A stretch of DNA of 64,000 bases, from contig NZ_ATHI01000026.1 in NCBI RefSeq assembly GCF_000422245.1, positions 1-64,000 of the forward strand, given 5' to 3'. Below, piece by piece: positions 10,844 through 40,054 of the stretch. Position numbers and translations under genes: made by a program. This DNA comes from Alkalidesulfovibrio alkalitolerans DSM 16529 (GTDB taxonomy: Bacteria; Desulfobacterota; Desulfovibrionia; Desulfovibrionales; Desulfovibrionaceae). Positions within the stretch are counted from its first letter, which is position 1; each line of letters opens with the position of its first letter. Below the pieces are notes generated by a model. That model saw only the letters and a program-made list of their open reading frames with translations. It was not told where the DNA came from and did no database searches.

Positions 10844-11067
10844 GCCGTCTCGACCTCCACGTGGGCGGCCTCGGCGTGACGCACGCTCACGTGCGAGCCG
10901 TCGACCTCGAGATCCACGGGATCGACCAGGGGGGCGTTGCGCACCACGCGCACCTGCGTTCCGGGAAAGAAGCCGAGGTCCATCAGGCGCAGGCCGAGCT
11001 GGCCTGTGGCCGTGATCCGGGCGATGGTGCAGCGGTCTCCGGGGGCGATGTCGTTCAGGGTGGGCAT
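10840..11067 (-). CDS. feoA: FeoA domain protein (proximal to feoB)
   Basis: A 75-residue SH3-like cytosolic protein that supports FeoB. Family pattern: short N-terminal LNDIAPGD, GQLGLRLMDLGFFPGTQVRVVRNAPLVDPV, and the closing strand with DGSHVSVRHAEAAHVEVE. It overlaps feoB by ATGA. The ribosome-binding site is weak, so it is probably translated by coupling to an upstream cistron. One of two FeoA copies in the same operon. Confidence 0.92.
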   Translation of the reverse strand: MPTLNDIAPGDRCTIARITATGQLGLRLMDLGFFPGTQVRVVRNAPLVDPVDLEVDGSHVSVRHAEAAHVEVETA

Positions 11068-11192
11068 TGGCGTCTCACTTGATTTTGTTTTCGACTTTCA
11101 TTCGCAATACGAAGGCGTGGCAGTCCCTGAAAGGGCTTCCCGTCCGCCAGTCGGCTTGGACGGCGGGCCGGACCGGCGGAGCGGTCTGGCGC

Positions 11193-11495
11193 TCAGGCCA
11201 CCAGAATGCCGTCCGCCACGTTCCTGCCGAGGGTGAGGCGGCTGCCGTCGAGGCTGACGAGCAGGGGGCCTCCGCCGCAATTGCTGACCACGTGGACCTC
11301 GACGCCGGGCACGAGCCCCATGGACTCGATGCGGGTGCGGATGTCGCGCTCGCCGGAGAAGCCGAGAATCAGGGCGCTGTCGCCCTCTGCCATGGCGGCC
11401 AGGGTGCCGGTCTTGGGCAGGCGGGGCGTCGCGCACTGTTCGGAGCCGAGGGATGTGCCGGGGTGCCGTTTCTGCTGGACGGGTTCTCGGGACAT
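11193..11495 (-). CDS. feoA: FeoA domain protein, second copy with N-terminal extension
   Basis: A 100-residue FeoA-type protein and first gene of the iron operon. Its N-terminal 35 residues are a low-complexity extension with one Cys, followed by the SH3-like core: FSGERDIRTRIESMGLVPGVEVHVV, GGPLLVSLDGSRLTLGRNVADGILV. The start at 11495 has AAGGAG at good spacing and lies 33 bases from a Fur box. The 125-base gap to the next feoA is larger than other gaps in the operon. Paired FeoA proteins ahead of FeoB are common in Desulfovibrio-type genomes. Confidence 0.88.
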   Translation of the reverse strand: MSREPVQQKRHPGTSLGSEQCATPRLPKTGTLAAMAEGDSALILGFSGERDIRTRIESMGLVPGVEVHVVSNCGGGPLLVSLDGSRLTLGRNVADGILVA

Positions 11496-11527
11496 GGAGG
11501 GCTCCTTGTGTTGATTGAATATGAGAG

Positions 11528-11542
11528 CGATAATTGTTATCA
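11528..11542 (-). promoter_or_regulatory. Fur box controlling feoAAB operon
   Basis: CGATAATTGTTATCA matches the 7-1-7 Fur consensus TGATAATnATTATCA at 12 of the 14 defined positions. It sits 33 bases upstream of the first feoA. On the minus strand it overlaps a plausible -35 (TTGATA), with a TATTCA -10 sixteen bases further on, so a bound Fur would block RNA polymerase. Confidence 0.85.
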
Positions 11543-12048
11543 ATCGAGAGAGGCGTATAGCAAGCGAATTACGGGAAAGGCAAGTGTAAATTTGGATTTC
11601 TTGTGACCATGGCCTGGCGGGTGGAAGATCGAGGCCTTGCCCTGCTGTCGGCCTGAGCGCCCCGGGGCAGTCCGTGCCGTGTCCGTGCGATGTGTGGCGG
11701 GAACCGGAAAGGGCTCCCGCGCCGACGGGACATATCCTCTGGATTTGATCCGCATGCACCTATGCGGACCCTGCGATATGTGCGTTTAAGCAGGCTTATC
11801 CAAGCTCTATTGCTGTTTTGTGGAAAAAAACAACTCTTATTGCGAAATATTTTTAAAAACTTGGTGTTACCATAGAAAATAAAATTGCTGTTGGTTGTGG
11901 AAGGGGTTGTATTTTGGGACGCTTCGGACATCGGCTTGACATTGAATTTCAAAATCAATAGAAGGAGGCCGTCCTCCACTCTGGATAGGATGCCACGGTG
12001 CGGCCCGGTCCGGTGTGCGGACGTGTATTTATGGAGGGGGTGCGACGG
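11543..12048. other. AT-rich control region feo / diguanylate cyclase
   Basis: Apart from the Fur box this region has no supported gene. From about 11770 to 11965 it is markedly AT-richer than its surroundings. TTGACA at 11936-11941 could be the -35 of the diguanylate cyclase gene, but the -10 is poor (ATAGAA). A 20-codon frame at 11990-12052, whose stop overlaps the chosen GGDEF start, might couple translation but has no other support. Confidence 0.5.
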
Positions 12049-34198: not shown

Positions 34199-34624
34199 AT
34201 GGCCCAGATCCATCTCGAAATCGTCACCCCGGACCGCAAGGTGCTCTCGCAGCCCGTGGATTACGTGGGTGCGCCCGGCATCGAGGGCGAGTTCGGCATC
34301 ATGGCCAACCACGTGCCCTTCCTGTCGGCCCTTGGCATCGGAAACCTCTATTACAAGGACAGCGGCAAGTACCACTACGTCTTCGTGGCGGGCGGATTTG
34401 CCGAGGTGAGCGACAACAAAGTCACCATCCTTGCCGAGGTTGCCGAAAAGGCCGCCGAGATCGACGTGGAACGCGCTCGTAGGGCCAGGGAACGTGCCGA
34501 GGAGCGGACCCGCCTCCAGAAGGAGGAGATCGACTTCGCCCGTTCCCGCGCCGCCCTGCAACGGTCGCTGGCGCGCATGCGCTGCCGCGCTTCCGCCGAG
34601 TCCGCAGGCACCTGCGTCCTCTAG
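34199..34624 (+). CDS. atpC: ATP synthase F1 subunit epsilon
   Basis: A 141-residue rotor and regulatory subunit. The beta-barrel domain contains [15 protein letters not shown]-type sequence (here [21 protein letters not shown]) and the [14 protein letters not shown] strands. A two-helix C-terminal domain of Arg/Glu-rich sequence can inhibit ATP hydrolysis. The C-terminal 20 residues are unusually rich in Ser, Cys and Arg. It ends the operon, with a terminator 28 bases later. Confidence 0.94.
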
Positions 34625-34651
34625 TCCCACACCGAACCGACGCCCCCTGGA

Positions 34652-34685
34652 GCGCGGGTCCGAAAGGGCCCGCGCTTCTTTTTTT
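34652..34685 (+). terminator. Terminator of atp operon
   Basis: Perfect GCGCGGGTCC / GGGCCCGCGC-type hairpin with a CGAAA-like loop, followed by TTCTTTTTTT. It lies 28 bases after the atpC stop. Confidence 0.9.
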
Positions 34686-34814
34686 GGGGGCGAGGCGTGA
34701 AAACTCCGCGATGCCCGCGTTGCCGCGGCAAATCCGGACCCTCGCGTATCGGCAATACGCATCGACCCCGGATTTGCCTTGCGCCTTGGCCTCACGGTTT
34801 TTGAAGCCTCGCCC
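34686..34814 (-). repeat. Covarying hairpin repeat, copy R1
   Basis: A large inverted repeat, outer arms GGGCGAGGC / GCCTCGCCC, inner arms GGCAAATCCGG / CCGGATTTGCC around CGCGTATCGGCAATACGC. On the minus strand the left part (GGCTTCAAAAACC..CAAGGCGCA) matches the other copies at 47911, 49372, 50459 and 58669, while the central arms differ in sequence but remain self-complementary. Confidence 0.8.
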
Positions 34815-35057
34815 GAGACTCATCTTCAGAACACCCCTCGCTCACTGTGTTTGCGGGTCTTGGTCTCACGTCCGCCAAGAAATCGCCAAGGGTTCTGGAG
34901 AAACGGGCGGGCATCATTGACGCGAGAACAGAAAGAGCGGGCTCGTCACGCGCGCCTCTTCCAAGGCATTCGAAGTGGCTCGTGCGCTGTCCCTATGTCT
35001 GAGTTCTCCCCATCCGAGAGTGGAGCCGCCGCGTGGGGCATGGCGAAGGCGAGATAG

Positions 35058-35073
35058 TGGCGCCAAATTTGCA
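35058..35073 (+). promoter_or_regulatory. Sigma-54 (-24/-12) promoter of radical SAM pair
   Basis: TGGCGCCAAATTTGCA has complete TGGC and TTGCA blocks with correct spacing. The predicted start near 35084 leaves a 34-base leader containing GAGGAAGGG before the ATG at 35118. The geometry resembles the glnN promoter in this window. Confidence 0.7.
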
Positions 35074-35117
35074 AGCGGGGCACTGTTTGGAACATTTGCG
35101 CGCAGCCGAGGAAGGGC

Positions 35118-36206
35118 ATGTCAGAGAAAATTTTCAGTTATCTCGAAGTCCACGCTGTTGACCACTGCAACAACAATTGCCGCTGGTGCAACAACCATTC
35201 TCCCTTCTGTCCGGAGCGGGAATATGCTGCCGGGGAATACATCCCCTGGATGGAAAAACTCGAAAAGAAGGGAATCGAGTACGACATGATCTCGGTCATG
35301 GGCGGCGAGCCCTTTCTGCACAAGAATTTGACAGGCTTCGTGCTTGAGCTTCGACGTCGGTTTCCGCGAAAGTCTCTCGCGATTTCAACAAACGGGTTTT
35401 GGCTGGGTGAGGAGCAGATAGAGAGCTACCAGATGTTATGGAAGCTCACGGACATTCTATTCATTTCACTGTACCCCAATCTGCTGCGTGGGCTGAAGGA
35501 TGGCGGAGACGTCACGCCCTTGCTCCACAAGATCACAAAGCACAATCCTCATCTCAAGATCGATCTCAGACAAAAACAGACGTTCAGAATGATCGCGTAT
35601 TCCGAGGAGCCTGTCGAACCGAACACGTTTTGCGGGACGTCGGAATGCACGACCCTTTTGGCGGATGGGCGTCTCGCCCGCTGCGGATTGGGCGGCTACG
35701 CAGGCTATAGCCCGAATGTAGGCGAGGCGTTTAGGTCCTCGAAGCATATGTTCTTCGATCTGAATCGGAAGTTCTCAAAGGGGGAGTTCTGGAACTGGCG
35801 GCGTCGCTGGCCTTTTGACGCTTGCTACCATTGCGATAGCTACAAGTGGCGAGAGACGAATTGGAAGGCCGAGAAGGGCAAGCGAAGACGCCTTGATCTC
35901 GAACTGGAACATGATCGATTGGCTGGCGGCAGATTGATGGCGCTTGGAAACTTCACGCAAGCTGAGAGTCTTTTTCGCAGGACTGCAGAAAAATATCCTT
36001 TAGATGCAGCGCTTTGTAATGACCTTGCGGTTTGCGTCAGCCATCGTGAGCCGCTGGAAGCGCTCGCCTATCTGGCGAAAGCCCTCGAAATCGATCCTGA
36101 CCATGACGACGCGAGGGCGAATCTCCGCCGACTTCGGCATGTTCTGGGCAGGGGCACTGAAAACGCGAGGCCTGAAGTATGTTCCGCAGATGCAGGCGTC
36201 CGGTAG
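35118..36206 (+). CDS. Radical SAM protein with SPASM-like cysteines and TPR tail (1)
   Basis: A 362-residue enzyme. The SAM-cluster motif is C17-NNN-C21-RW-C24, followed by NNHSPF; the GGEP SAM-binding motif is at residues 62-65. A second Cys set, C172, C177, C189, C236 and C239, is spaced like a SPASM/twitch auxiliary cluster. After about residue 260 the protein turns to TPR-like helices (FTQAESLFRRTAEKYPLD, then EALAYLAKALEIDPDHDDA). The CNNNCRWCNNHSPF form resembles radical SAM proteins found in surface-polysaccharide or flagellin-modification loci, but no substrate is indicated. It is followed 42 bases later by a paralogue. Base composition is visibly lower in GC than the neighbours, which suggests acquisition by transfer. 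Confidence 0.85.
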   Translation: MSEKIFSYLEVHAVDHCNNNCRWCNNHSPFCPEREYAAGEYIPWMEKLEKKGIEYDMISVMGGEPFLHKNLTGFVLELRRRFPRKSLAISTNGFWLGEEQIESYQMLWKLTDILFISLYPNLLRGLKDGGDVTPLLHKITKHNPHLKIDLRQKQTFRMIAYSEEPVEPNTFCGTSECTTLLADGRLARCGLGGYAGYSPNVGEAFRSSKHMFFDLNRKFSKGEFWNWRRRWPFDACYHCDSYKWRETNWKAEKGKRRRLDLELEHDRLAGGRLMALGNFTQAESLFRRTAEKYPLDAALCNDLAVCVSHREPLEALAYLAKALEIDPDHDDARANLRRLRHVLGRGTENARPEVCSADAGVR

Positions 36207-36248
36207 GGTTTCTCGTCAACAAGCAGCCTGCGGGCAAGGAGTAGCGGC

Positions 36249-37271
36249 ATGTCTGTAAGGACAGTTGATTGGATAGAAATACATGCTGTTGACCATTGCA
36301 ACAACAATTGCCGATGGTGCAACAATCATTCTCCATTCGCCAAGGAAAGATTTTATGAACCTGAAGAATATTTCCATGGACTCGATGAACTGCGGCGTCG
36401 TCGAATAAATTTCAATGTACTTTCAATCATTGGCGGAGAGCCATTTCTCCATCCAGAGCTCGAAAACTTCATATTTCAAATCAAGAGCCGCTATTGTCGC
36501 CCGATCATGCTGACGACAAACATTTTTTGGCTTTCTGAGATCGACGTCGTATGCCACCTCGATCTTCTGAAGCTGGTCGACATCCTTAATGTGACGTTGT
36601 ATCCGAATATTGTGAAAAGTCTTGGCGGATACGAAGCTGCCGAGCATCTTCTCAGCAAGCTAAGGGCGCTTCTTCCTAAGACGAATGTCAAACCAATGCG
36701 GATAGAGCACGTATACCGCAAGCTTGAATTTACGCGTGAAAAAATGATCGTGGACAAGCATTGCTATAACGCCGAGTGTACGAATCTCATGGCGGACGGA
36801 CGTTTGGCCCGATGCGGACCGGGCGCCTACGCCCACCTGCACCCGGATGCCCCCCGGGAATTTTGCGAGTCAAAGGACATGTTCTACGATCTGAAAAGCG
36901 ACAAAAGGGACTTCTGGCACTGGAAACACCAATGGCCACTCGACGCGTGCGCATATTGCAACCACTTTCAGGCAATCAAATCACCATGGAAAGTGGAAAA
37001 GGGAGTCTTGCGGAAGAAGCGGTACGAGAGCGACTACAAAATGCGGATCGCCGACCGCTTGGCGGAGGCTGGTGCATGGGCGCAGGCGGGCCGGATTTAT
37101 CTCGCGATAGCTGAAGAAACTGGGCCGGACAGCCTCGTGTATGGGAAGATTTCCGAAGCGTATCGCAACTTAGGGCAGCCTGTCCTGGCTGAGAAATTCC
37201 TGAACCTGTCGCGCAAGGTTTCGAACGTCGAGACCGCGCAAGGTGATTGCGCGGAAAGCCACGTCGTTTAG
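36249..37271 (+). CDS. Radical SAM protein with SPASM-like cysteines (2)
   Basis: A 340-residue paralogue of the preceding gene. The first 30 residues are nearly identical (IHAVDHCNNNCRWCNNHSPF). C17, C21, C24 and GGEP match exactly. The auxiliary set C172, C177, C189, C234 and C237 keeps the same spacing, and MADGRLARCG is shared. The C-terminal 80 residues are helical and TPR-like (ADRLAEAGAWAQAGRIYLAIA) but diverged. AAGGAG precedes the ATG. It is the most AT-rich gene in the window. The pair looks like an old tandem duplication whose copies now handle different substrates or form a heterodimer (inference). Confidence 0.85.
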   Translation: MSVRTVDWIEIHAVDHCNNNCRWCNNHSPFAKERFYEPEEYFHGLDELRRRRINFNVLSIIGGEPFLHPELENFIFQIKSRYCRPIMLTTNIFWLSEIDVVCHLDLLKLVDILNVTLYPNIVKSLGGYEAAEHLLSKLRALLPKTNVKPMRIEHVYRKLEFTREKMIVDKHCYNAECTNLMADGRLARCGPGAYAHLHPDAPREFCESKDMFYDLKSDKRDFWHWKHQWPLDACAYCNHFQAIKSPWKVEKGVLRKKRYESDYKMRIADRLAEAGAWAQAGRIYLAIAEETGPDSLVYGKISEAYRNLGQPVLAEKFLNLSRKVSNVETAQGDCAESHVV

Positions 37272-37301
37272 ACGGCAATTTGCGGTATCATATCAAACGG
37301 A

Positions 37302-37343
37302 AAGGGGACCGGAATGCCTGGGGGAAGGCATTCGGGTCCCCTT
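37302..37343. terminator. Bidirectional terminator, radical SAM pair / nrdD
   Basis: A long hairpin AAGGGGACC-G-GAATGCC / GGCATTC-G-GGTCCCCTT lies between convergent genes, 31 bases after the radical SAM stop and 20 bases after the nrdD stop on the other strand. There is no long T run on either side, so termination may be moderate. Confidence 0.7.
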
Positions 37344-37362
37344 CGCGTTGAGGCCGCCAAGT

Positions 37363-39426
37363 CTAGCAGATCATGTCGGCGCTGATGGCGGAGAAGACGA
37401 TGCGGTCCATGTATTCGGCCTTCTTGCCCTTGTTCCATTGCGACACCGGGCGGTAGTAGCCCACGATGCGCGTAAAGACCTCGGTCTCGGCGCCGCAGTC
37501 GGGGCATTCGAACATCTCGCCCCGGATGTAGCCGTGCTCCTTGCACACCGAGAAGGTCGGCGTGATGGAGAGGTAGGGGATCTTGGTCTTGGTGAAGGCC
37601 TTGACGATGAAGCTTTTGAGCGCCTTGGTGTCGGCCACGGCCTCGCCGAGGAAAGAGTGGAAGACCGTGCCGCCCGTGTACAGCGGCTGGAGCATGTTCT
37701 GGTGCTCCAGGGCGTGGAAGATGTCCGTGGTCTCGTCCACGGGCAGGCAGGTGGAGTTGGTGTAGTAGGGCGTGCCGTTGCCCGAGGCCGCGATGTTCTC
37801 GTAGAGCGACTTGTCGATCTTGGCCAAGCGGTAGCTGGTGCCCTCGGCCGGGGTGGCTTCCAGATTGTAGAGGTTGCCCGTCTCTTCCTGGAAGCGCCGG
37901 GTCAGGTCGCGCAGGTGGTTCAGGGCGCGCTGCATGAAGCGGATGCCCGCATCGGTCTGGATGCCCTTGCCAAGCAGATTCAGACAGGCCTCGTGGCCGC
38001 CCACCAAGCCGATGGTCGAGAAGTGGGCCCGGTAGCCGTTCTTCAGGTAGCGCTTGGTCCAGGGGAACAAGCCGCGATCGAGGTTGTCGTTGACCAGCTT
38101 GCGCTTGAATTCGAGAGAGTTGCGGGCAAGCTCCGCGTATTCGGTGAGCAGGTCGAGGAAGTCCTCCTCGCCCTGGGCGAGATAGGCGAGCTTGGGCAGG
38201 TTCAGGGTGACCACGCCGATGGAGCCGGTCAGGTCGCCCGCGCCGAAGAGGCCGCCGGTCTTGTTGCGCAGTTCGCGCAGGTCCATCTGCAGGCGGCAGC
38301 ACATGGAGCGCACGTCCTCGGGATCGAGGTCGGAGCTGATGAAGTTCTGGAAATAGGGCGCGCCGTACTTGGCGGTCATCTGGAGCAGCAGTTCGCCGAT
38401 CTCGGATTCCCAGGGGAAGTCCTCGGTGACGTTGTAGGTCGGGATGGGGAAGGAGAAGATACGGCCGTGGTAGTCGCCCGCGAGCATGACCTCGAGGAAG
38501 GCCTTGTTGATCATGTCCATCTCGGCCTGGAAGTCACTGTAGGTGGCGTCTTGCAGCGCGCCGCCGATGATCACGGCCTCCTTGCCCAGGTGGCGCGGGG
38601 CCTTGAGGTCGAAGGTCAGGTTGGTGAAGGGCGACTGGCCTCCCCAGCGCGAGGTGGTGTTCAGGTTAAAGACGAACTTCTGCATGGCCTGCCGGACCTG
38701 TTCGTAGGTCAGGCCGTCGTGGCGGATGAAGGGCGCGAGGTAGGTGTCGACGTTGTTGAAGGCCTGCGCCCCGGCCCACTCGTTCTGCAGCGTGCCCAGG
38801 AAGTTGACCATCTGGCCCAGGATGGAGTCGAAGTGCCGGGCGGGACCGGCCGAGGAGCGGCCTTCGAGGTTGAAGCCCTCGAGCAGCAAGTCGCGCAGCG
38901 ACCAGCCCGCGCAGTATCCGGCCAGGCCGAAGGAGAGGTCGTGGATGTGGAAGTAGCCGTGCTCGTGGGCCGCGCGGATCTCCTCGGGATATTTCTCAAG
39001 GGCATAGCGCGCCTGCACGGTGCCCGAGAGGTGCAACATGAGCCCCTGGAAGGAGTGGGTCATGTTGGCGTTCTCGTTGACCCGCCAGTCGGCCTTGTTG
39101 ATGTAGTTGTCGATGGTTTCTTTGATATCGACGTAGGCCTGTTTCTGGTCGCGCAACTGCCGGCGCTTCTCGCGGTAGACGATGTAGCGCTTGGCCACGT
39201 CGAACAGTCGCGACTCCATGAGCACGACTTCCACGAGATCCTGGACCATCTCCTGCTCGGGAACGTCCGTCCCCTCAAGCTTACCCTCAACCTTACGGGC
39301 GAGCCTGCGGGCGAGGATCGGGTCCTTGATCCCGCTGGCTTTCAGGGCTTTCAGGATGGCGCCTGCGATGCGCTCCGTGGACCAGGTTTCCTGGCATCCG
39401 TCGCGTTTGCGGATCAGCGTGGGCAT
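37363..39426 (-). CDS. nrdD: Anaerobic ribonucleoside-triphosphate reductase
   Basis: A 687-residue class III ribonucleotide reductase that makes dNTPs without oxygen. An N-terminal ATP-cone regulatory domain (residues 1-95, starting PTLIRKRDGC) is followed by the 10-stranded barrel. The C-terminus carries the zinc-type cysteines (CKEHGY and CPDCG) and the glycyl-radical site in TRIVGYYRPVSQWNKGK. The start at 39426 has GAGGAGG upstream. The radical is installed by NrdG, encoded directly upstream and overlapping. Oxygen exposure would cleave the radical protein. Confidence 0.96.
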   Translation of the reverse strand: MPTLIRKRDGCQETWSTERIAGAILKALKASGIKDPILARRLARKVEGKLEGTDVPEQEMVQDLVEVVLMESRLFDVAKRYIVYREKRRQLRDQKQAYVDIKETIDNYINKADWRVNENANMTHSFQGLMLHLSGTVQARYALEKYPEEIRAAHEHGYFHIHDLSFGLAGYCAGWSLRDLLLEGFNLEGRSSAGPARHFDSILGQMVNFLGTLQNEWAGAQAFNNVDTYLAPFIRHDGLTYEQVRQAMQKFVFNLNTTSRWGGQSPFTNLTFDLKAPRHLGKEAVIIGGALQDATYSDFQAEMDMINKAFLEVMLAGDYHGRIFSFPIPTYNVTEDFPWESEIGELLLQMTAKYGAPYFQNFISSDLDPEDVRSMCCRLQMDLRELRNKTGGLFGAGDLTGSIGVVTLNLPKLAYLAQGEEDFLDLLTEYAELARNSLEFKRKLVNDNLDRGLFPWTKRYLKNGYRAHFSTIGLVGGHEACLNLLGKGIQTDAGIRFMQRALNHLRDLTRRFQEETGNLYNLEATPAEGTSYRLAKIDKSLYENIAASGNGTPYYTNSTCLPVDETTDIFHALEHQNMLQPLYTGGTVFHSFLGEAVADTKALKSFIVKAFTKTKIPYLSITPTFSVCKEHGYIRGEMFECPDCGAETEVFTRIVGYYRPVSQWNKGKKAEYMDRIVFSAISADMIC

Positions 39427-40054
39427 GTGTCCTCCTCGGGGGCACGTAGGCATTGACGGTCAATGAAAAGCCCGCGGGCAGCAGCGCCCGCGCGGCGTCG
39501 ATGTCTGAGGGGGAGAGCAGGGGAACCCGGGTCATGCGGAAAGCGAAGGACTTCGGGCGTTCCCGGGCCAGATCGAAGACCTGGCTGAGATTTTCCGCCG
39601 CTATCTTGGCATCGGCTTTGCCGCCGGTCAGGGCGGGATACAGGTCGACGGGCCCTTTCACGTCCACGTGGATCTCCTCGACCAGTTCCCGGTCGAGGAC
39701 GTCGGCCAGGACGTCGGGCCGCATGCCGTTGGTGTCGAGTTTCACGGGCAGGCCGAAGCGACCGATGTCGCCGAGAAAGCCGCAGAGTCCGTCGGCAATG
39801 GTCGGTTCGCCGCCGGAAACGACGATGCCGTCCAGCCAGTCCCGGCGACGCTCGATGAAATGCAGCGCGTCCGGGGCGAAGATGGTGGGCAGGGACTCGG
39901 GGCGCCATGCCAGGTCTGCGTTGTGGCAGGTGGGGCAGCCGAGATTGCAGCCGGAGAGGAAGAGCACGGCCGTGGACCGGCCAGGCCAGTCGCACAGGCT
40001 CAGAGGCTGAATGCCACGCAGTCTTTCCCAGGCGTCCGATGGGGTGTGGCGCAT
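39293..40054 (-). CDS. nrdG: NrdD activating enzyme (radical SAM)
   Basis: A 253-residue activase of the TIGR02495 type that abstracts hydrogen from the NrdD glycine. SAM cluster C36-NLG-C40-PT-C43 in GCNLGCPTCHN; GGEP-type motif in VVSGGEPTIADG; KLDTNG and VDVKGP segments follow. Homology features stop near residue 205 (TVNAYVPPRRTH). The remaining 48 residues are Arg/His/Pro-rich and lie over the first 134 bases of nrdD in another frame, an unusually long overlap. Either this tail is real, or translation normally ends earlier in related species and a frameshift has extended it here. Confidence 0.88.
   Translation of the reverse strand: MRHTPSDAWERLRGIQPLSLCDWPGRSTAVLFLSGCNLGCPTCHNADLAWRPESLPTIFAPDALHFIERRRDWLDGIVVSGGEPTIADGLCGFLGDIGRFGLPVKLDTNGMRPDVLADVLDRELVEEIHVDVKGPVDLYPALTGGKADAKIAAENLSQVFDLARERPKSFAFRMTRVPLLSPSDIDAARALLPAGFSLTVNAYVPPRRTHAHADPQTRRMPGNLVHGAHRRRHPESPESQRDQGPDPRPQARP

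Follow-up and report, generated by a model that had tools for sequence, protein, structure and literature searches.

The two adjacent genes at positions 35118-37271 of a 64,000-nucleotide stretch of Alkalidesulfovibrio alkalitolerans DSM 16529 (contig NZ_ATHI01000026.1, positions 1 to 64,000, referred to here as the window) encode two paralogous radical S-adenosylmethionine (SAM) proteins, which from their cysteine pattern we firmly assign to the twitch class of these enzymes. Our preferred reading, which is tentative and somewhat short of an even chance, is that both are SpeY-like twitch radical SAM oxidoreductases acting on a surface-glycan sugar or polyol. The parts of it that we infer are the cluster content, alcohol oxidation over epimerisation, the glycan substrate, the role of the C-terminal tetratricopeptide repeats (TPRs) and the control by sigma-54.

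Radical SAM core and auxiliary cysteines

Both open reading frames (ORFs) lie where the original prediction had placed them, and their main features are as follows.

35118-36206, plus strand: gene 1, twitch radical SAM protein with a C-terminal TPR part, 362 amino acids (Pfam Radical_SAM, E-value 7.9e-12; TPR_19, 2.6e-8)
36249-37271, plus strand: gene 2, paralogue from a different subclade, 340 amino acids, AAGGAG upstream (ORF, alignment, PDB matches)
35166-35189, plus strand: gene 1 C17-X3-C21-X2-C24, SAM-cluster ligands, invariant in 16 of 16 aligned rows
35631-35633, plus strand: gene 1 C172, first auxiliary-cluster cysteine, invariant in all 16 rows
35682-35684, plus strand: gene 1 C189, second auxiliary-cluster cysteine, invariant in all 16 rows
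35823-35834, plus strand: gene 1 C236-X2-C239, last auxiliary-cluster cysteine pair, invariant in all 16 rows
36297-36320, plus strand: gene 2 C17-X3-C21-X2-C24 (alignment)
36762-36959, plus strand: gene 2 auxiliary region with C172, C189 and C234-X2-C237 (alignment)

Both proteins match Pfam Radical_SAM (PF04055) above the gathering score (7.9e-12 and 1e-10). They are 38% identical over 305 residues, and the C17/C21/C24 cysteines, the GGEP motif and the near-identical N-terminus expected from the original prediction are present in both, residues 12-30 being identical. In the 16-row alignment, which takes in both window proteins, the invariant positions include E10, H12, H16, C17, N18, C21, C24, GGEP, L67 and H68 and, further along, N92, C172, C189, P232, C236, C239 and W249. 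Both frames are intact and carry all of the invariant residues as well as ribosome-binding sites.

Across these rows C172, C189 and the CxxC form the pattern of one cluster with four cysteine ligands, which is the twitch pattern, and the four invariant cysteines are accompanied by a SpeY-matching fold of gene 1 through residue 255. All five auxiliary cysteines that had been predicted are in the sequence (the CxxC at 236/239 in gene 1 and 234/237 in gene 2), but C177 is not invariant: 11 of the 12 core rows keep it, genome G017 has a serine in its place, and three wider relatives do not retain it. The description of the proteins as SPASM-like was wrong, and a SPASM domain was ruled out because the cysteine pattern is of the one-cluster twitch type. 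The SPASM motif, as quoted in published work, has seven cysteines, CX9-15GX4C-gap-CX2CX5CX3C-gap-C (PMC6231123), and the CX2CX5CX3C part is absent from both proteins, whose later cysteines are C300, C306 and C355 in gene 1 and C334 in gene 2. A search against radical SAM subfamily models places both proteins in PF04055 but in no named family: none of the 25 NCBIfam families listed, of 33 for gene 1 and of 30 for gene 2, reaches its cut-off (for instance, MoaA scores 39.4 against 284, and viperin 29.5 and 30.1 against 180).

Structure models

35892-36155, plus strand: gene 1 TPR-like helices, residues 259-346 (Pfam TPR_19 and model)
37020-37238, plus strand: gene 2 C-terminal TPR-like helices, residues 258-330 (model with four helices, predicted local distance difference test score (pLDDT) 87-95 over 261-320)

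The gene 1 model has a pLDDT of 80.5 and a predicted template modelling score of 0.82; that of gene 2 is weaker (pLDDT 70.8). The models end in five TPR-type helices for gene 1 and four for gene 2, as had been predicted for both proteins, and this is supported by Pfam and the model for gene 1 and by the model for gene 2, which has no Pfam TPR match. When the gene 1 model was compared with solved structures, SpeY filled the first four Foldseek places (E-values 2.8e-10 to 7.8e-10), followed by BtrN (1.8e-5). A second aligner gave SpeY a Z-score of 20.0 with a root-mean-square deviation (rmsd) of 3.1 over 239 residues (model residues 2-255), TPR proteins Z-scores of 15.0 and below, and BtrN 13.7 over 211 residues, and a profile search matched SpeY over residues 8-122 (5e-14). 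For gene 2 the first four PDB matches were again SpeY (2.0e-6 to 4.0e-6), then viperin and EpeE, with BtrN at rank 26. The fold assignment is well supported by the model for gene 1, and gene 2 appears to share the SpeY/BtrN-type fold and the auxiliary cysteines, judging from its sequence and its weaker model.

The presence of viperins among the PDB fold matches, next after SpeY for gene 2, raises the alternative that the pair are viperin-type anti-phage genes making chain-terminating nucleotides, for which the pVip matches in PADLOC (2.6e-9 and 1e-9) and the sporadic spread of the family as AT-rich cargo would also speak. However, the pVip match is confined to residues 9-140 (profile positions 2-131 of 257-262), the shared radical SAM core, the viperin NCBIfam scores fall far below the cut-off, twitch cysteines and a TPR part are present, and the pair is flanked by atpC and nrdD instead of a nucleotide kinase. 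We consider this alternative very improbable.

Proposed reaction

In the SpeY-like oxidoreductase reading, each enzyme would generate a 5'-deoxyadenosyl radical from SAM bound on the C17/C21/C24 cluster, and the radical would take a hydrogen from a hydroxyl-bearing carbon. The second electron would pass to the fully ligated auxiliary [4Fe-4S] cluster (C172, C189, CxxC), and the product would be a keto group. The substrate would most likely be a sugar or polyol in a surface glycan, the C-terminal TPR may recruit a glycosyltransferase or carrier, and the two copies, of different subclades, possibly act at different positions. For BtrN, a low-potential auxiliary cluster with four cysteines is described as probably taking up the second electron once the deoxyadenosyl radical has abstracted a hydrogen (PMC9012708). 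Since the same elements are apparently present here, the best-supported reaction would be oxidation at a carbinol carbon. We put alcohol oxidation at about even.

Alternatively, the proteins might be radical SAM sugar epimerases, which would share the first step, but a hydrogen donor, for instance a cysteine, would then quench the radical and a hydroxyl of a glycan sugar would be inverted. EpeE/YydG is the second profile match (6.6e-10) and has Foldseek E-values of 1e-4 for gene 1 and 1.8e-4 for gene 2, in the latter case above BtrN, and the extra cysteine C177 of 11 of the 12 core rows could serve as the donor. Epimerisation is nevertheless unlikely, in our judgement: the dehydrogenase SpeY comes first in every comparison, Foldseek puts BtrN above EpeE for gene 1, and the putative donor is replaced by serine in G017.

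Neighbourhoods of the relatives

Conserved neighbours were mapped at 11 independent loci, namely this window, G079, G017, G047, Nitratidesulfovibrio oxamicus, G574, Geobacter UBA6802, G007, G716, G657 and the site shared by G660, G663 and G661, with neighbouring genes called by a home-made script and some named by eye. A glycosyltransferase gene adjoins the family gene at five of the 11 (G079, Geobacter UBA6802, G007, G657 and N. oxamicus), although no common partner emerged. In G079 the neighbour is a family 2 glycosyltransferase (GT2), with a nucleoside triphosphate (NTP) transferase on the opposite side and a cytidine diphosphate (CDP)-glycerol transferase close by. Geobacter has a multi-domain glycosyltransferase upstream and a GT2 one small ORF downstream, and the neighbour in G007 is WbsX. 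G657 and N. oxamicus both have a convergent GT2 downstream, the latter barely above the Pfam cut-off (24.2 against 23.3 bits). At the genus g8 site, one of the flanking genes encodes a phosphomannomutase/phosphoglucomutase. As a scale for these frequencies, the A. alkalitolerans genome of 3.2 Mb holds 21 PF00535 matches, of which two seem to share a reading frame. The original prediction had suggested a surface or flagellar glycan or protein as the target; a glycan fits about half of the relatives' loci and is somewhat likely as the substrate, but no evidence pointed to a protein or to flagella as the target, for which the remainder of the genome was not searched.

UDP-galactopyranose mutase (Glf) was considered as a partner and rejected: its gene lies three genes away in Geobacter and genus g8, yet PF03275 is missing from the A. 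alkalitolerans genome, and this domain is found in 67 of 348 genomes of the order and in five of the 12 genomes with strong family matches. There is a weak glycerol-phosphate theme, with a CDP-glycerol transferase in G079 (L009:9044-12198) and a glycerol-3-phosphate dehydrogenase in Geobacter (L017:13490-15215), and G716 (L069:3377-7403) has, by eye, a set for glycerol uptake, kinase and dehydrogenase. Elsewhere in the A. alkalitolerans genome, TPR-type glycosyltransferases 36-38% identical to the G079 neighbour stand among what by eye are housekeeping genes (L098:9131-10777 and L099:9643-11259).

TPRs bind peptides, and this counts for another alternative, in which the pair are peptide or protein maturases, similar to those of ribosomally synthesised and post-translationally modified peptides, with the TPR binding a target protein. 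Twitch and SPASM enzymes include peptide modifiers, according to published work (PMC6231123), and FlmG of Caulobacter is described as gaining its specificity through an N-terminal flagellin-binding domain (PMC7591256). Against this, the pair carries no Pfam peptide-recognition domain, no dedicated recognition-element model having been run, and the short ORFs beside it are unconvincing by eye; near the relatives, ORFs of at least 60 amino acids were called and shorter precursors were not sought. The absence of an evident precursor peptide or partner gene beside the pair agrees with the original prediction, and we regard a maturase role as distinctly unlikely.

Several observations weigh against the proposal of glycan-directed SpeY-like oxidoreductases. 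Six of the 11 loci, this one included, have no adjacent glycosyltransferase, and no partner gene common to the 11 was found. The reaction is not fixed by the common fold, and the authors of work on SkfB considered sequence networks a difficult basis for predicting fold or function within this subfamily (PMC6231123). SpeY carries N and Q in the positions of H12 and H16, which all 16 aligned rows keep. The support from BtrN is uneven: the EpeE/YydG profile match outranks that of BtrN (2.2e-4), and both viperin and EpeE stand above BtrN in the gene 2 fold ranking. Furthermore, the cysteine-bearing stretches are poorly modelled, with mean pLDDT values of 58-68 in gene 1 (blocks 151-180 and 231-250) and 34-49 in gene 2 (151-180 and 221-250), and the SAM-cluster loop (21-30) has values of 57 and 39, respectively.

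Horizontal acquisition and ancestry

The pair looks foreign and was probably acquired horizontally, to judge from composition and genome comparison. The GC content is 0.536 for gene 1 and 0.503 for gene 2, with 1-kb windows along the stretch mostly at 0.60-0.70, and at third codon positions it is 0.63 and 0.59 compared with 0.85-0.92 for the atp genes and nrdD. The codon scores are -1.00 and -1.03 compared with -0.23 to -0.51 for those genes, and the codon use of the pair is the most deviant among 48 script-called genes of the window, except for doubtful ORFs at 11292 and 18826. The low-GC island of the original prediction is borne out. The same is true of its acquired two-enzyme insert, which is supported by this composition and by the absence of the following segment from the corresponding sites in two congeners.

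34616-37364, no strand: segment holding the pair, without homology to the places after atpC or nrdD in two congeners (blastn)

Against the congeners G001 and G002, homology stops at 34615-34616 and restarts at 37363-37365, with about 2.75 kb between. In G001, atpC and nrdD share a contig at a distance of 84 kb, in G002 they are on separate contigs with different genes following each, and family matches are absent from both genomes. Because atpC and nrdD are apart in the congeners, the neighbourhood here was rearranged as well as inserted into; over 34199-39453, the adjacency of atpC and nrdD appears as a rearrangement coinciding with the insert. No convincing direct repeats marking an insertion were found at the flanks, and the two upstream window ORFs that were scanned hold no transposase-type remnant.

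Only genes 1 and 2 match the family strongly in the A. alkalitolerans genome, where two other matches are weak (5.5e-6 and 9.5e-5). The family is rare: among the 348 genomes of the order, 16 match at 1e-12, four of them distantly (1e-14 to 1e-17), and 12, including this one, at 1e-60 or better. Counts across the family come from genes called by script, some of them on contigs 4-7 kb long. This is the only one of the 348 with two full copies, G661 having one copy split over two contigs. In a phylum sample, five of 395 genomes match, this one included, and G148, from outside the order, does so strongly (3.4e-63). A pattern scan of species genomes based on the alignment gave six loci, in N. oxamicus, three Desulfovibrionaceae metagenome-assembled genomes (MAGs), one Geobacter MAG and one distant bacterium; gene 1 alone as the query gave none. 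A phage or plasmid origin was rejected: the phage collection and viral contigs gave no family match, PHROGs matches were weak and mostly generic radical SAM, viral fold matches were generic, and the plasmid collection gave one distant match (29% identity) in Planctomyces sp. SH-PL62. Three annotated glycosyltransferase genes and one for an iron-sulfur scaffold stand roughly 3-10 kb away from this plasmid relative (L044:11998-12834).

A tree of 18 proteins places gene 1 next to G716 (support 97/97, 63% identity) and puts gene 2 in one group with the proteins of G017 and Geobacter UBA6802 (98/97). A constraint joining genes 1 and 2 in one clade was rejected by the approximately unbiased test (p = 0.0005, which is optimistic because the clade was named after the tree had been inspected). 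A recent tandem duplication is ruled out by the tree and this test, and with the genes in separate subclades the pair would either have been put together from two subfamilies or go back to an ancient duplication, the copies of which then spread independently.

Of 13 family genes (gene 2 counted, G661 left out), seven have a GC content some 10 points or more lower than that of their own flanks, and in the remaining six the difference runs from -5 to +4 points; for two genes the flanks covered 2-3 kb. The G574 gene is directly preceded by a DDE_3 transposase fragment (2.3e-18) and has helix-turn-helix pieces on both sides, presumably of the kind found in transposases, which is evidence of mobile-element activity beside one family member; broken transposase-like fragments enclose this homologue at L016:9350-9990 and 11060-11800. 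In G657, a gene for a phage integrase is found some 7 kb away from the family copy. Genes 1 and 2 look like small AT-rich cargo acquired horizontally.

Foreign composition and the lack of a match in two congeners could also mean that the pair are decaying passengers without a present role. A relative in G148 (L077, G148:C6:478382-479227) looks decayed because it has two in-frame TAA codons. Both frames of the pair, however, are intact and keep their invariant residues and ribosome-binding sites, and decay is improbable here.

A broader form of the glycan oxidation proposal, speculative and rather unlikely though not far-fetched, is that anaerobic radical oxidation by a mobile family of TPR-tailed twitch enzymes remodels glycans on the surface of sulfate reducers. 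Each gene would move on its own, as AT-rich cargo, to unrelated places in the chromosome and alter a resident glycan there, and two subfamilies would be stacked here for two positions. Prophage O-antigen modification genes, which do much the same, offer a comparison. To our knowledge, oxidation of surface glycans by radical SAM enzymes outside antibiotic pathways would, if true, be a new role.

Transcription unit and candidate promoter

34649-34678, plus strand: probable intrinsic terminator behind atpC, between the atp operon and the pair (13-pair stem, then a T run)
37296-37349, no strand: inverted repeat lying between gene 2 and convergent nrdD, possibly a two-way terminator (24-nucleotide arms, 88% complementary, 6-nucleotide loop)
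35058-35073, plus strand: candidate sigma-54 promoter TGGCGCC-N4-TTGCA (TGGCGCCAAATTTGCA), two mismatches to the Desulfovibrionales motif

Gene 2 starts 42 bp past the end of gene 1 on the same strand, and the pair is flanked by atpC (34199-34624) on one side and convergent nrdD on the other. Because of the terminator-like stem and the inverted repeat, the pair looks like its own two-gene unit, a candidate drawn from sequence features: the stretch scanned around the stem has three terminator-like sites compared with 3.8 expected, and the terminator scan did not list the repeat. RNA families at gathering scores and tRNAs were absent from the window. A minus-strand ORF at 39293-40054, NrdG-like by eye, overlaps the nrdD start by more than 130 bp and has an unusual C-terminus.

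The candidate site, TGGCGCC-AAAT-TTGCA, is 60 bp upstream of gene 1. The Desulfovibrionales sigma-54 motif is given as tGGcacg / tTGCt, and in D. vulgaris the largest sigma-54 group concerns the cell exterior, with 37 of 85 operons (PMC4641369). The sigma-54 promoter of the original prediction is a candidate, the site being present and RpoN encoded in the genome, but the pattern is at chance level in the window, where 12 matches with at most two mismatches compare with 12.0 expected, and one match of another pattern with 0.42. A comparable site precedes five of 47 other called window genes. Sites with at most two mismatches within 130 bp upstream were found for three of 13 family genes (gene 1, G047 and G007; gene 2 left out, G661 included), and the G007 site (TGGCGCGGAATTTGC, 56 bp upstream) resembles that of gene 1. 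One other gene, in two copies of one locus, has such a site among the genes called in 27 loci, a listing of 307 that includes family genes and duplicate loci. Control of the pair by sigma-54 would be plausible, and these observations are suggestive of it.

Comparison with known systems

Among the matches listed in the open PMC literature, none was a publication on this family or on SpeY. The more distant relatives are a wider set of low-score radical SAM proteins (L079, L081, L082 and L085; 20-24% identity), which are set apart by a long branch (support 100/100) and, at 259-289 amino acids, are too short for the TPR part. L079, L081 and L082, the three that were aligned, keep E10, H12, H16, GGEPxLH, C172, C189, the CxxC and W249. 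By eye, some of the four are in clusters that resemble those for surface polysaccharides, and distant relatives in G010 (L082:9098-9919) and G722 (L084) are in or near acyl-carrier-protein, ketoacyl-synthase and short-chain dehydrogenase-like genes. EpeE/YydG, a peptide epimerase, shares the radical SAM core, with a profile match that ends at residue 147, but its substrate is a peptide.

BtrN, the 2-deoxy-scyllo-inosamine dehydrogenase (PDB 4m7t), shares the twitch fold and the four-cysteine auxiliary cluster but is a weaker match to gene 1 (20% identity, rmsd 4.3), one that ends at residue 243 before the TPR, and belongs to an antibiotic pathway. The closest solved structure to the pair is SpeY (PDB 7wzv, 7wzx and 7x0b), titled a twitch radical SAM dehydrogenase, whose function we take to be in spectinomycin biosynthesis. 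It shares CX3CX2C, GGEPxLH, (S/T)xYP and the fold over model residues 2-255. Its motifs are GGEPLLH and SVYP, compared with GGEPFLH here and SLYP (gene 1) or TLYP (gene 2), and its auxiliary cysteines follow the same order of one, one and then CxxC, as viewed through an alignment to a closer relative (1.1e-53). In contrast, identity is 18-19% over the structural match, which stops before the TPR. The characterised SpeY, presumably, and BtrN are antibiotic-pathway enzymes. The TPR-tailed relatives occur scattered among the Desulfovibrionaceae, apparently as genes that have moved, and glycosyltransferase genes adjoin about half of the loci. The family would lend itself well to the study of radical chemistry on sugars of the cell surface, and the pair brings two distinct subfamilies of it together within one genome.

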